Notes under the pieces: model-generated
The model's input: the letters and a program-made list of their open reading frames with translations, nothing else
What the model was told of the DNA's origin: nothing
The model's database searches: none
Part shown: positions 26,736 through 35,821 of the stretch, piece by piece
Layout of the letters: each line of letters opens with the position of its first letter
How positions within the stretch are numbered: the first letter of the stretch is position 1
Position numbers and translations under genes: made by a program
Assembly: GCA_021647505.1 (NCBI GenBank)
Contig: JAKIUN010000040.1
Location: 1-35,821, forward strand
From: Gammaproteobacteria bacterium
GTDB lineage: Bacteria; Pseudomonadota; Gammaproteobacteria; SZUA-152
DNA length: 35,821 nt
Reading direction: 5' to 3'

Positions 26736-27381
26736 GAAAAAACAAAAGGGATTCAAGAGCTTGAAGATGAAGAATGTCTAAATCAGACGGCAATACGAAA
26801 AGATTACGCGTATTTGTCAGAGGGAACAGTGATTCCACATGGCATTTATGATCTAAAGTATAATGATGCGATGATCAACATTGGAACGAGTGCTGATACC
26901 AGAGAACTTTCCTGTGATTCGATAAAGCATTGGTGAGAGACGATAGGTTGCAGTCGCTATAGAAACGCAACATCCTTATTGCTGTTGCTTGACTGTGGCG
27001 GGAGTAATTCTTATCGCCATCACGTATTTAAAGAAGCACTACAGCTGTTGGCAAACGACATTGGGATAAAGATTAGGCTTGCTCACTGTTCTCCCTACAC
27101 ATCGAAGTTGAAACCCGATAGAACATCGATTATTCCCACATGTTAGTCGTGCGATGTCCGGTGTTGTTTTCAAAGACTATAAACTGGTTAAATAGTTGAT
27201 TAAATAATTGATTGAAAATACCAGTACAGAAAGCGGATTAAGAGTGGCGGCGAATATAATCGACAAGGTTTATGAAAAGGGCAAAAAATCCTGTAGCAGA
27301 ATTTATGACACGGACACCATTATTTTCGATACAGTGCTAAGGCAGCTGAATTATAACATAAAGCCAGTCCCAGGCCATTAA
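26736..27381 (+). pseudogene. ISAzo13-family transposase relic
   Basis: With one to several frameshifts and stops the region reads LSEGTVIPHGIYDLKYNDAM, INIGTSADTRELSCDSIKHW, LLLLLDCGGSNSYRHHVFKE, ALQLLANDIGIKIRLAHCSP and YTSKLKP. Then come SRAMSGVVFKDYKLVK, STESGLRVAANIIDKVYEKG and FDTVLRQLNYNIKPVPGH. This is the C-terminal two thirds of the ISAzo13 (Rhodopirellula-type DDE) transposase. The IPHGIYDL and DCGGSNSYRHH blocks are diagnostic. The N-terminal part is missing and the frame holds in-frame TGA/TAG codons (for example at the expected WW after KHW). It abuts the stop of the CgeB-like gene. Confidence 0.72.
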
Positions 27382-28103: not shown

Positions 28104-28370
28104 TAAAACAGCTAATCTGGATAGGGAGCTACTTGAGCAGCCTCCTCTCAAAGCACCATAGATACGGGTTCGTATACGGCACCTGGAATGCTATTCGCAG
28201 ATATGTTTACCGGGCAGACCGGCTTTACATCAAGCGTCTATCTGACCGTAGCCGGATGATGGATTTTGCACCATACTGTACGCAAGGAAATGAGTCCTAT
28301 TCTTGCGAAATTTTCATTGCTTAACCCCATGTTTGTGCCCAATTTATTTGAGTAACGTCAGTAGCTTTTA
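28104..28370. other. Unassigned stretch between HAD gene and group II relic
   Basis: A 63-codon frame from TTG 28133 has GGGAG 5 nt upstream and reads GFVYGTWNAIRRYVYRADRL in its middle. I recognise no family, and the opposite strand of the same bases is also partly open, so I do not call it a gene. Confidence 0.3.
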
Positions 28371-28820
28371 CGTGATAACCCTAGCGGCTTGCTGTACGGA
28401 ACAACCTGGCTTGTAACCAAAGCTGCTGTTAGAGAAGATGGGTTCAAACAGGTAACCGAGCCCCCTTATGACAGACTGCATCACCACTCAGCCCAATGCA
28501 CAGGGGATACCAAGTTTGCGCATCTCTCCAGACTCCTTGGGGATTTCGACGCGCAACGCAGGTGAGGGGAGATAGCTCCCCTCCAATACCTGCTTCTTGA
28601 TCGCTATCCACTGAGGCCGGAACTTTTCCGGGAAATCTTCAGTGCTGATACCATCAACACCGGGAGCACCTTTATTAGCTCTGACCTTTTTCCAAGCTTC
28701 GGTTATACTCGCATTCGATACGATGTATTCTACCGATGCATAATCGACAGGAGGTCATTCTATGACGCGCCACCAGGCACCCAAATCCCCAGTCGGGGTT
28801 AGTGAGTTACCTGAGCTCAT
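28371..28820 (-). pseudogene. ltrA: Group II intron reverse transcriptase/maturase relic, N-terminal part
   Basis: Minus-strand reading from ATG 28820 gives MSSGNSLTPTGDLGAWWRVI and a stop. After a shift it continues DYASVEYIVSNASITEAWKK, VRANKGAPGVDGISTEDFPE, LEGSYLPSPALRVEIPKESG and EMRKLGIPCALG, then an in-frame TGA, then GYLFEPIFSNSSFGYKPGCS and VQQAARVIT. These are the opening RT blocks of the LtrA family (AWKKVRANKGAPGVDG and LRVEIPK...RKLGIP are diagnostic). It ends before the YxDD catalytic box, and intron domains V and VI are not evident. It is a truncated, stop-containing relic. Confidence 0.8.
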
Positions 28821-29471: not shown

Positions 29472-29515
29472 AATCTGCTATGGAAAGGATGCTTCTGAAG
29501 AAAAAAATTAATCAA

Positions 29516-29833
29516 GTCAGGTCTTTGATTTATGATGGCCGTGTTTCTGTCTTGACTGGTTGCTTCGTAAGTGCTCAATGGTTTCGGCGGTGGCCTTCTT
29601 TGCGCTAATCGCACATCGCCCAGATCCTGGTCGCCATCCAGCCATGATTGTATCTTTTCCACAAAGCTGTCGCTGCCAAGATATACCTGATTTCGTAAGT
29701 GCTTCCACGGCGATGGCTGGCCTTTTCCCTCCTGGATGAATTTTCTATAGCGTTCGATGGCTATTGCCTTTCTTTTTGCAAACTATTAGGAACCAGAGCT
29801 TATCGGACTGGGATCATAAATCAAAGACCTGAC
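29516..29833. mobile_element. RAYT-derived mini-element with 21-bp inverted repeats
   Basis: The 21-bp arms at 29516-29536 (GTCAGGTCTTTGATTTATGA(T)) and 29813-29833 are exact reverse complements and enclose a RAYT coding remnant. Both carry the GTCAGGTCT motif seen at other RAYT loci here. It has the form of a non-autonomous, internally deleted element. Confidence 0.75.
29537..29785 (-). pseudogene. RAYT transposase relic (central/C-terminal part)
   Basis: One unbroken minus-strand frame reads FAKRKAIAIERYRKFIQEGK, GQPSPWKHLRNQVYLGSDSF, VEKIQSWLDGDQDLGDVRLA and QRRPPPKPLSTYEA, then SQDRNTAII. This matches the segment between the HUH nuclease and the C-terminal HTH of RAYT transposases. Both the nuclease domain and the HTH are missing and the frame runs into the inverted repeat, so it cannot be active. 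Confidence 0.75.
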
Positions 29834-29863
29834 CATTCCTCTCTACTTCCTCTCCCCTCCTTC

Positions 29864-30498: not shown

Positions 30499-30541
30499 GG
30501 CTAACAAAAGCAATTAATATGGATATTTTTCCGAAATGTTT
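30499..30541 (+). repeat. attC-like half-site after vapC (copy 1 of a shared 40-bp element)
   Basis: TAACAAAAGCAATTAATATG then GATATTTTTCCG, 40 bp at 30502-30541, matches 33781-33820 at about 33 of 40 positions. Both copies start just after the stop codon of a cassette-like gene, as the R''/L'' half of an integron attC site does. The other half of the site is not clear here. Confidence 0.5.
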
Positions 30542-31132
30542 GTAATCTCAGTATGTGCTGCAGTGCCTGTAAAGGGCTCTGCCCCCTTTAACTTGCGTCG
30601 AATCCATGACAATACTCCCTTGAGTGACGCTGGTGTTTTGTACAGTAATTTTTTAAGTCAGCCATTGCAAGCGGAATATTCCCCCACTTTGGGGTATTAT
30701 CTCATCCAATATCTCGGCCACACCCCAATATTCCAAGGAGAAAAGCATTCGGGAGTATTTGGTAACTTGTTGAATAAATTATATTTTCAGCTGAAACGGC
30801 GAAGATAGGGCATGATTAATTGATAAATATGTACCGGAAGTACCGTACATAATATCCCCCAAAATGTCTTATTTGTCCGTTCAATATTCGGTGGGAATTG
30901 CAGACTGCATGTCCATGGCGTAAAATAAGATGATGTAAGTGATTGATTGTTTAGCAGGTTTGTAGGAGTATTTGGAGAGGTCGGGAATCACCGGCGAATA
31001 AATCACCGGATTTCGGGGCGGAGTTCTACCCCACTTTGGGGTAGATTAAGCGTTAGATTCGCCGAGCAAGCTCGGAGAAGATGGTAGGCAATAGCTGTAT
31101 ACATACTCAGTATTGTAGACTATCCTGATAGC
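30542..31132. other. Gene-free accessory stretch with paired hairpins
   Basis: No supported gene; the 90-codon frame 30536-30808 has no ribosome site or recognisable motif. CCCCACTTTGGGGTA occurs at 30682-30696 and again at 31029-31043, the second in a perfect hairpin CTACCCC-ACTTT-GGGGTAG. AATCACCGG appears twice near 30990-31015. GTTAGAT at 31052-31058 fits the attC core GTTRRRY. The leader of the IS91-type gene occupies the last 70 bases. Confidence 0.45.
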
Positions 31133-32439
31133 ATGTCAAAACATACCGTACAGCAGGTTCTTCAACAATACCTGGCAACGGCACAAAAAGTCCGCGTACC
31201 TCTGCACCACCTGAAAGCCCTGGACAAACTCTCCACCTGTCGTACCGCCGCTTTGGGCGGGCATGCGCAATATTGTGAAAACAACCACCTCAACGGTATA
31301 TGGTACAACTCCTGTAAACATCGTGCCTGTCCACAATGTCGTGGCATGCCAACCGAAGAATGGTTAATTAACACCCGGGAAGTATTACTGGATTGCCCGC
31401 ACCACCACGTAATATTCACCATACCCGCAGCACTTAATAACCTATGGCGCTACAATCAAAGCATCATGACAGACATCCTGTTTAAAGCCGCTCAACAAAC
31501 ATTAAAACAATTCTCAAAAGACCCAAAATACCTCAACGCCACACCCGGCATACTCTGCGCCTTACATACCTGGGGCCGAAGCCTGTCACTACACCCTCAT
31601 ATCCATGCCCTCATCAGCCATGGTGGAATCAATGAAAAAGGTGAATGGACAACCCCCGAAAAAGCGATACTGTTTCCCCAAAAACCCGTCATGATGGTCT
31701 ATCGGGGAAAGCTGCTCGCGATGATAAAGCGTGCGATGAAAGAAAAAGACTGGCAAACACCCCCCGCTTATCAAAGAAATCAACTCACCAACCTGCTCAA
31801 CAAACTTGGCCGACAACCCTGGGTTGTTCATTTCTGCAAACGGTATGACCATGCCGATGGTGTCGCCAAATACCTGTCACGATACGTCAAATCGGGGCCA
31901 TTAAAAAATCAACAAATAAAGTCAGTCACCGCTGAACAGGTGACATACCAATACCAGTCGCACCAAACGAAAAAAACAGAAACACTGACACTGCCAACGA
32001 ATCAATTCATACAACGGCTCCTACAGCATATCCCGCTACCCGGAAAGCCCACCGTACGATACAGTGGTTTATATCATTCAGCGACCCGAAAAAAGCTTAA
32101 CCTCGCCCGGGCTGCGTTAGGACAAGCCGACGTGAGCGAACGCCAGATACTGGACTGGCAACGCTTCCTGGAAAGCAAAGGCAACCTGCCTGTCTGTGAA
32201 ACGTGTGGTTTACGACTGACCAAAAGGGTCGATATATTGCCGCAGCGACAAGCGGCATAATACGCTGGCGAAAACATGACCATTTGAGTCATGGAGCACT
32301 GCTGTGCCTGAAGGAAAATAAAAAGGGTATTGAAAAAGCGCCGAATAAATGTTGATATACAAACTACCCACCCGGATGTCAGGTGGGAATCGGGAAAATG
32401 AATACTGAATGGCCATAGTATGAGGGCGGCGAATCTAAC
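31052..32439 (+). mobile_element. IS91-like element framed by 12-bp inverted repeats
   Basis: GTTAGATTCGCC (31052-31063) and GGCGAATCTAAC (32428-32439) are exact reverse complements that enclose the IS91-family transposase. IS91 elements normally lack inverted ends, and these two sequences also fit attC cores (GTTRRRY and RYYYAAC). The boundaries may therefore be those of an integron cassette rather than of the IS itself. Confidence 0.45.
31133..32260 (+). CDS. IS91-family rolling-circle transposase (Y2, HUH)
   Basis: 375 residues, full length for this family. The N-terminal zinc-binding part has C48, C61, C66 and C69 (CKHRACPQC). The HUH metal-binding motif is HPHIHALIS (H156, H158), and the two catalytic tyrosines fit Y247 and Y251 in VAKYLSRYVKSG. 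The C-terminus has CETCGLRLT. The enzyme nicks one strand and transposes by rolling-circle replication. No frameshift is visible, so it may be active. It lies between attC-like core sites with a duplicated 78-bp unit downstream. Confidence 0.9.
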   Translation: MSKHTVQQVLQQYLATAQKVRVPLHHLKALDKLSTCRTAALGGHAQYCENNHLNGIWYNSCKHRACPQCRGMPTEEWLINTREVLLDCPHHHVIFTIPAALNNLWRYNQSIMTDILFKAAQQTLKQFSKDPKYLNATPGILCALHTWGRSLSLHPHIHALISHGGINEKGEWTTPEKAILFPQKPVMMVYRGKLLAMIKRAMKEKDWQTPPAYQRNQLTNLLNKLGRQPWVVHFCKRYDHADGVAKYLSRYVKSGPLKNQQIKSVTAEQVTYQYQSHQTKKTETLTLPTNQFIQRLLQHIPLPGKPTVRYSGLYHSATRKKLNLARAALGQADVSERQILDWQRFLESKGNLPVCETCGLRLTKRVDILPQRQAA

Positions 32440-32466
32440 AGCTGGGCGAGTTCAGTGGGGCGACTA
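32261..32466. other. Short gap downstream of the IS91 transposase
   Basis: Contains the hairpin CCCACC-CGGATGTCA-GGTGGG (about 32368-32388), possibly the ori or ter end of the IS91 element, then the inverted-repeat arm at 32428-32439. No gene. Confidence 0.4.
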
Positions 32467-32641
32467 ATCTAACAAGTCGATAAAGGCGGCGCTGACAGCA
32501 TGGTGGCGCTGCGCGTTTTGGTCTGGTGGGGCGCCGCTTATCTAGGCGTTCAAGTCGATAAAGGCGGCGCTGACAGCATGGTGGCGCTGCGCGTTTTGGT
32601 CTGGTGGGGCGCCGCTTATCTAGGCGTTCTAGGCGTTAGGA
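32467..32641 (+). repeat. Tandemly duplicated attC-like integron recombination site
   Basis: ATCTAAC (32467-32473, RYYYAAC core) is followed by two exact 78-bp copies (32473-32550 and 32551-32628) and ends in GGCGTTAGG (32632-32640). Within each copy GATAAAGGCGGCGC pairs with GCGCCGCTTATC, leaving a two-base bulge, as attC inner boxes with extrahelical bases do. The outer CTAAC pairs with GTTAG. The next gene begins 19 bp after the end, the position expected for a cassette gene. No integrase gene is visible. Confidence 0.6.
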
Positions 32642-32659
32642 AAAGAAGGAGAGGGGGCA

Positions 32660-33745
32660 ATGGATAGAGTCATCAATATTAGCTCGTGGGATGGTAAAGA
32701 GAGAAGGGTGAACTCCACCGAACCAGATAGATGCCAAAGAATTTCTGATAAAATTTCACCAAGCGACGGTGATTGGAAGGAATACATTGAAAGAATCCAG
32801 TGGGAGCAGAATACACTGTTTGATTATTTGAAAGATATTCAGCGGAAAAAATTTCTGGTAATTAATTATGCTGTTGGGATATTTCCTTTTTTGGTGGCTG
32901 CGATAATTACAACCTATTCATATATTAGCAAAGCTAGCGGCGGCTCCTTGTCTGGAGTTGTTATTGGTTTGTTTATAGTGATTTTGATGGCTGCAGGTGC
33001 ATCAAATATGGTAGCGATAAAATATATTGCTGCATTTAAAGCCAATGCAATATTGCTTATTAGGCAGATTATATGTTTAAGGCAGGCTTTGGATACCGTT
33101 AACTACTGTATGTTTGAAGGAGAATTGCCAAAAAATATAGACCCTCTAAGAAATCGAGATACGAAGTATTGGAGTGTATTTGGTAGGCATAGAAAGCTCC
33201 CAATTGGTAATAGCGGTTATCGTAGGCACTATCTGGATAACTATAGCGAGTCGGCAGATAAAACGGTTATAGTTTTTATATTCATTGTTTCTTCTTTACT
33301 TTTGTGCGCTCCCACAATATTTATGATCGTAAATGGCCATTTTGTTCTAATGAAAGGAGAATATATTAGTGTTGGGTTTTATGAAATTTTACTTGGAGTA
33401 ACCTTGGCTCTAGCTTTAGTATGTTTTCGATTTTTTATTAAAGATTTTTCAGAGGTGTTAGCAATACCATTGCCAAGTGAAGACAAAGAAGATAGTGATG
33501 ATGACGTTGGTGACAAACCTATAAAATATACGATGAGTAAATCTGTTATTGCTTTAGGAGTCGGCCCTATACTTGTCGTTGGAGTTCTTTTTGTTGCTGG
33601 CTTTTCTCAGTTAAATGAAGGTAAACGTATAGTCTTGACATTTATGGCTTTAATCGGTGTTTTCTGTGTTTATCACGCTTTTTATAGCGTTTTTATCGAT
33701 TCCTTCAATAGAATCAAAAAAGCGGCTATTACAAAAAAGACGTAA
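32660..33745 (+). CDS. Six-helix membrane protein of unknown function, cassette-like cargo
   Basis: 361 residues; GGAGAGGGGG lies just before the ATG. A soluble polar N-terminus of about 65 residues is followed by six predicted membrane helices (FLVINYAVGIFPFLVAAIIT; VVIGLFIVILMAAGASNMV; VIVFIFIVSSLLLCAPTIFM; FYEILLGVTLALALVCFRFF; VIALGVGPILVVGVLFVAGF; IVLTFMALIGVFCVYHAFYS). An acidic loop, PSEDKEDSDDDVGDKP, lies between helices 4 and 5. I recognise no family. It is AT-rich, preceded by the attC-like tandem site and followed by the shared attC-like half at 33778-33820, so it most likely is an integron gene cassette. Confidence 0.75.
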   Translation: MDRVINISSWDGKERRVNSTEPDRCQRISDKISPSDGDWKEYIERIQWEQNTLFDYLKDIQRKKFLVINYAVGIFPFLVAAIITTYSYISKASGGSLSGVVIGLFIVILMAAGASNMVAIKYIAAFKANAILLIRQIICLRQALDTVNYCMFEGELPKNIDPLRNRDTKYWSVFGRHRKLPIGNSGYRRHYLDNYSESADKTVIVFIFIVSSLLLCAPTIFMIVNGHFVLMKGEYISVGFYEILLGVTLALALVCFRFFIKDFSEVLAIPLPSEDKEDSDDDVGDKPIKYTMSKSVIALGVGPILVVGVLFVAGFSQLNEGKRIVLTFMALIGVFCVYHAFYSVFIDSFNRIKKAAITKKT

Positions 33746-33777
33746 TAGAATAGTGCGTTGGCTTTAAGTGTAAAAAT

Positions 33778-33842
33778 ACCTAACAAAAGCAATAAACACG
33801 GATATTTTTCCGCAGCGTTTTTTGTGCTAAAAAATCTAGCAC
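33778..33842 (+). repeat. attC-like half-site after the membrane-protein gene (copy 2)
   Basis: ACCTAAC fits RYYYAAC; the next 40 bp match the element after vapC. A stem GTGCTA-...-TAGCAC (33824-33842) follows. The site then runs into GGGGTCAGGTCTTGC, so RAYT-linked sequence has replaced its right half. Confidence 0.5.
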
Positions 33843-35680: not shown

Positions 35681-35821
35681 TAGACCTGACCCCTTTCGCT
35701 GTGCTGTGACCCCTTTCGCTGTGCTGTGACCCCTTTCGCTGTGCTGTGACCCCTTTCGCTGTGCTGTGACCCCTTTCGCTGTGCTGTGACCCCTTTCGCT
35801 GTGCTGTGACCCCTTTCGCTG
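35681..35821. repeat. 20-bp tandem repeat running to the window end
   Basis: TAGACCTGACCCCTTTCGCT leads into six exact copies of GTGCTGTGACCCCTTTCGCT (35701-35820), with the next copy beginning at 35821. The shared TGACCCCTTTCGCT core is an extension of the RAYT boundary motif. The true copy number lies outside the window. Confidence 0.95.

Follow-up and report, generated by a model that had tools for sequence, protein, structure and literature searches.

The exact tandem repeat at 32467-32641 of the DNA analysed here (the window, 35,821 nucleotides) is best explained as the attC site that closes an integron gene cassette carrying the gene for an IS91-family HUH transposase. This cassette lies first behind a retained attI site whose integrase gene has been deleted, and its attC would have been duplicated later; we put the probability of this reading at about 0.88. 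The order of events that we propose starts with an integrase that, by analogy with integron biology, would have recombined the folded bottom strand of the then single-copy attC with attI at G/TT. After this insertion the attC would have gained two tandem duplications, of 9 bp and 78 bp, for which slipped replication at the hairpin is the most likely cause. The intI gene belonging to this attI platform was deleted after its fourth codon.

An initial annotation, made from the letters of the window, had described a cassette cluster without an integrase. An integron remnant without an integrase is indeed present; the attI site and the four intI codons at 30596-31052 show that it is what is left of an interrupted integron and not simply a group of cassettes. 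The features are collected in Table 1.

Table 1. Integron-related features of the window (a slash within a sequence marks the crossover)
Feature	Positions	Strand	Basis
attC half-site following vapBC, of the cassette 2 type	30499..30541	+	83% to cassette 2 half-site
First four codons of the deleted intI, ATG GAT TCG ACG	30596..30607	-	comparison with contig 28
attI platform and intI upstream region, crossover between G31052 and T31053	30608..31052	+	copies in own genome and beside intact intI
Gene cassette 1, start TTAGATTCGCC directly behind attI crossover, end at G of GCG/TTAGG	31053..32635	+	junctions in relatives; start/1L complementarity
Hairpin CCGAG-CAAG-CTCGG at cassette start	31062..31075	+	conserved in clade, compensatory changes
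IS91-family HUH two-tyrosine transposase gene, 375 aa	31133..32260	+	Pfam Y2_Tnp, Zn_Tnp_IS91
attC of cassette 1, internally duplicated	32467..32641	- (active strand is bottom)	trained attC score, Infernal
Copy 1 of exact 78-bp tandem duplication	32473..32550	+	TRF 100% identity; repeat finder
Copy 2 of exact 78-bp tandem duplication	32551..32628	+	TRF 100% identity; repeat finder
Extra 9-bp duplication CTAGGCGTT ahead of canonical 1R	32629..32637	+	sequence
Gene cassette 2, coding for a 361-aa membrane protein (32660-33745); its attC is truncated beyond the left half	32636..33842	+	sequence

The attI platform and the integrase gene

Positions 30595-31056 recur in the same genome on contigs 105 (98%), 28 (95%), 59 (98%, 206 bp), 20 (96%, 179 bp) and 40 (76%), and the platform is also present in many genomes of the family, relatives holding several copies. 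Similarity between copies stops at AAGCGTT, exactly at G/TT, and a different first cassette follows. Furthermore, in two relatives (G005:C238 and G006:C49) a homologue of the platform immediately precedes an intact intI and is oriented as an attI should be, and these observations together identify the platform as attI. With the window and contigs 105, 28, 59, 20 and 40, one genome carries at least six copies of it, each with a different first cassette. No intI was found alongside four of them, and the copies on contigs 59 and 20 are cut on the intI side, where they adjoin palindromic GGGGACAGACC repeats. On contigs 105 and 28 the platform adjoins intI pseudogenes.

Beyond the four intI codons at the platform edge the sequence is unrelated, and no intI match was found in the window's contig. 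The sole intact intI of the genome lies on contig 39 (TIGR02249, 445 bits), and fragments occur on contigs 105, 28, 36, 84, 10 and 42. Since intI is cut after four codons here and the genome keeps the contig 39 gene, the integrase has been lost from the window by deletion and retained in the genome. The statement of the initial annotation that no integrase is visible holds for the window but not for the genome. With attI and cassettes present, intI reduced to four codons and the attC duplicated, the window illustrates the decay of an integron.

Cassette 1 and its boundaries

The cargo listed for the doubled attC in the initial annotation left out the actual one, the transposase gene of cassette 1. 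Its product matches Y2_Tnp (8.6e-52) and Zn_Tnp_IS91 (3.6e-23), and residues H154 P H156 x H158, Y247 and Y251 are invariant across eight homologues; the predicted protein accordingly combines the HUH motif, the two catalytic tyrosines and the zinc-binding N-terminus of the IS91 family. A gene cassette requires a start complementary to its own 1L box, and the start of cassette 1 (GTTAGAT, 31052) is complementary at 7/7 positions to the 1L of the doubled site (ATCTAAC, 32467).

The ends of the cassette coincide with integrase crossovers. In another genus (G018:C87) the same cassette, at 82% DNA identity and with a 1-base gap relative to the window's reading frame, lies behind an attC rather than attI; the shared sequence starts at AAGCGTT. 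G013:C32 shares, at 72% and as far as GCGTT, the last part of the gene, the trailer that separates gene and attC, and an attC in single copy; next comes another cassette with its own attC. Junctions with differing neighbours in relatives therefore fall exactly at G/TT, and the trailer is conserved between genera. These two relatives show one end each; a complete cassette with both ends intact was not found in any one relative of the same family. Immediately ahead of the attC, at 32424-32474, GGGCGGCGAATCTAAC recurs 34 bp on as GGGCGACTAATCTAAC; over 13 bp the first of these copies repeats the cassette start in inverted orientation, and this doubling is kept in other genera.

A clade of cassette-borne transposases

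Among 369 genomes of the class, seven matches to the transposase reached E 1e-70 or better, the window included, and all the other six have an attC-like sequence beside the gene, four by model and two (G059 and G372) first read by eye; the G059 site scores 35.9 bits by covariance model. The best plasmid homologue, 46% identical, is a cassette of integron In722, and another lies between attCs on plasmid pTBH10 of Thiolapillus brandeum. Scanning GTDB contigs with a single-protein query gave no matches; an alignment of eight sequences gave 78 named loci. A quick maximum-likelihood tree of 62 proteins placed the window in a clade of 41 (support 98), which ranges from Gammaproteobacteria to Planctomycetes and Acidobacteriota and includes a single case from a clinical class 1 integron that carries a carbapenemase.

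At 30 of the 33 assessable clade loci one or more of three tests gave evidence of an attC downstream of the gene (two tests at 24 loci); the sister group yielded 1 of 19 (none by two). Loci L143, L144 and L171 gave no attC by the three tests. The 7-mer at the start was complementary to the downstream 1L at 22 of 34 clade loci, one of which (L142) looks accidental and was left out of the count of 30, where 1.4 would be expected from shuffled flanks; the sister group gave 0 of 17. A hairpin of at least 5 bp was present in 24 of 27 starts, picked among those with a recognised junction, compared with 19% of shuffles. It mostly begins 10-11 nt past the G of G/TT and shows many compensatory changes. 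Clade members thus appear usually to travel as cassettes. The attC label clusters on the tree yet needs 11 changes, in part because the attC models miss sites, and for this reason we do not claim a single origin.

Members of the clade might be doubly mobile, being at once integrase cassettes and candidate rolling-circle elements, with the start hairpin as terminus and the single-stranded attC region as origin. IS91-family elements have ends, oriIS and terIS, that are used by the transposase, the ori end having a tetranucleotide as its target, and the conserved 5' hairpin could be a candidate terIS. Folded single-stranded DNA is the substrate of HUH transposases as well as of integron integrases, which makes the idea plausible, and it is favoured by the conserved catalytic residues, by ends that coincide with integrase crossovers, by the compensatory changes in the start hairpin and by the conservation of the trailer between genera. 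Against it, no copies with the same ends were seen outside cassettes, and the hairpin could equally serve the mRNA, so that we regard double mobility as a tentative and rather unlikely proposal.

On a different view, a cassette or attC was already present and an ordinary element of the IS91 type inserted itself there, within it or next to it, the attC belonging to another cassette. IS91-family elements are after all insertion sequences, and several IS groups (for example IS1111-attC) are known to target attC. Such an insertion would not account for left and right limits that match integrase crossovers in different genomes, for starts complementary to the downstream 1L in most clade loci, or for a trailer and attC conserved along with the gene; we strongly disfavour it and leave it only a slim chance.

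The doubled site and the origin of the duplication

The initial annotation was right that the 78-bp unit is exactly doubled. The left flank of the doubled unit is the 1L box (32467-32473) and its right flank is GCGTTAGG, from 32634 onwards, with the canonical 1R GTTAGG from 32635. The 9-bp CTAGGCGTT is itself doubled (32620-32628 and 32629-32637). Copy 1 retains 1L with an altered 1R (GTTCAAG), and a canonical 1R is found only behind copy 2 and the 9 extra bases, for which reason cassette 1 would be expected to excise poorly. Recombination of the doubled copy by an integron integrase is doubtful because of the duplication.

Complete relatives of the site (contig 32 and G013:C32) carry a single copy, so that the duplication appears to be a local event; the copy on contig 89 ends broken inside the unit. 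The left edge of the unit, TCTAA/C, agrees with 1L and the right edge does not fit, which led us to reject integrase cleavage points as the unit boundaries and to prefer slippage. An origin from a group II intron or an IS1111-type element was also rejected, neither element being at the site. The single copy in complete homologues and the 100% identity of the two copies would also be compatible with an assembly artefact hiding a normal single attC. Ordinary reads, however, easily cover an array of 156 bp, and the additional duplication of 9 bp speaks for a local event that did take place, so that an artefact seems very improbable. Taken alone, the doubled attC is a curiosity.

Identity of the attC

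The attC architecture proposed in the initial annotation (outer cores, inner arms and a bulge) is borne out by the fold, the boxes and two trained models. The outer boxes ATCTAAC and GTTAGG(A) pair as RYYYAAC/GTTRRRY, with the last base off consensus, and the inner boxes GATAA(A)G and CTTATC pair with extra-helical bases on the foldable bottom strand. When one copy is joined to both flanks and folded as bottom strand, 1L and 1R are paired, the spacer is open, 2L and 2R are paired with extra-helical bases, and a GC stem follows. The bottom-strand fold of the whole 175-nt site was better than 197 of 200 shuffles; that of a single copy is unremarkable in energy, 22 of 300 shuffles being as good.

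A score combining left box, right box and stem, for which 24 attCs (class 1 and Vibrio, taken from plasmid records) served as training set, reached 42.1 at 32467-32632 (40.6 with one training attC, vG, dropped). Nowhere else in the window did it exceed 20, and its maximum in 779 kb of Markov sequence was 24.8. The covariance-model search that the initial annotation had called for, with an Infernal model built from 12 class 1 attCs, gave as its top match in the window the bottom strand of 32467-32554 (21.5 bits; E 0.0011 with filters off, a rough value); genome-wide the site had an E of 0.11 and ranked beneath matches on contigs 102 and 32. A simple attC scan, which yields many matches by chance, missed the site because the doubled length exceeds its limit, and an Rfam search gave no match. 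The annotation would have been abandoned without a reasonable model match and similar sites elsewhere; the matches exist, and contigs 32, 89 and 102 carry related sites, as do relatives. The contig 32 relative (81%) preserves the arms via compensatory changes and has an additional C in 2L (GAT-C-AAGC against GATAAGC); known attCs carry an extra base in 2L.

Judged from sequence, the doubled repeat is a genuine attC, because it is the best match in the window by two models trained separately and its arms are conserved in homologues. The fold energy of a single copy, inside the shuffle range, is what a chance inverted repeat or a transcription terminator would give, a reading that we consider next to impossible in view of two trained attC models, crossover-exact neighbours and homologues with compensatory changes in the arms.

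Cassette 2 and the surrounding genes

The membrane protein of cassette 2 gave no Pfam match. The 1L of this cassette, ACCTAAC (33778-33784), is complementary to GTTAGGA at all but one of the 7 positions. The attC of the cassette, truncated at about 33842, resembles the hairpin attC of contig 39. The latter (L018 10278-10388) is a very strong 111-nt hairpin (z -13) beside the intact intI, and the half-sites behind cassette 2 and vapBC share its type.

Three neighbours had been proposed as typical cassette cargo. The membrane protein is cassette 2; vapBC and the flavin reductase are outside the array of cassettes 1 and 2, on the side of attI that faces intI. A half attC of another type does stand behind vapBC, but on that side of attI, and nothing marks the flavin reductase as a cassette. 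Between flavin reductase and vapBC, at 29515-29836, two near-perfect inverted copies of TCAGGTCTTTGATTTATGAT some 320 bp from each other may represent a MITE. On the minus strand at 28140-28770 we noted a frame-broken reverse transcriptase-like remnant (GAPGVDGISTEDFPEKFRPQWIAIKKQVLEGSYLPSPALRVEIPKESGEMRKLGIP...), by eye a group II intron protein; group II introns are known to target attC sites. A remnant at 26979-27146 resembles, also by eye, the end of a DDE transposase (LLLLDCGGSNSYRHHVFKEALQLLANDIGIKIRLAHCSPYTSKL...), and at 35687-35821 a 20-bp unit TGACCCCTTTCGCTGTGCTG is repeated 6.8 times with no mismatch, reaching the contig end.

Comparison with known systems

attC and attI sites, integrons lacking an integrase and IS91 transposases are already known, and one such transposase cassette has been named. 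A CALIN is a cluster of attC sites lacking an integrase, with at least two attCs and no integrase nearby. The window resembles CALINs and degenerate integrons in having cassettes without a complete intI nearby, and differs in keeping attI and the start of intI and in holding only one complete attC, those at 30499 and 33778 being half-sites. Group IIC-attC introns and IS1111-attC elements are likewise mobile elements tied to attC; they insert into it, whereas here the element is the cassette itself. IS91 and ISCR elements share the Y2_Tnp and Zn_Tnp_IS91 domains, the HUH motif and the two tyrosines, but have free oriIS and terIS ends where the present element has cassette boundaries, and ISCR1 stands beside integrons, not within a cassette.

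As a rule the cargo of integron cassettes is passive; in the present case an entire clade of rolling-circle transposases is found inside cassettes, with exact boundaries and, in most cases, a conserved start hairpin. Two systems working on folded single-stranded DNA share the same ends, and mobilisation of the cassette by the transposase without the integrase is therefore directly testable. If the clade were doubly mobile, one unit would have two routes of movement, the integrase and rolling-circle transposition, and might start new cassettes or increase their number outside integrons.

Transposases reported in cassettes are mainly IS5, IS3 and IS110 insertions (PMC11089894), and IS91-like elements have been mentioned as ISCR (PMC8876359). 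In the open-access papers covered by our search we found no description of the cassette-borne IS91 clade. The closest counterpart is the IS91-type cassette named gcISKpn22 in the class 1 integron In722 of pMRY16-398_2 (NZ_AP018758; PMC6262049), the last cassette there, between aadA2 and qacEdelta1. Like cassette 1 it carries an IS91-family transposase, its own attC and a start hairpin, and its GTTGAAC complements the 1L GTTCAAC. It differs in its single-copy attC, in its transposase subfamily and in its setting, a plasmid-borne integron with intact intI1 and resistance cassettes.
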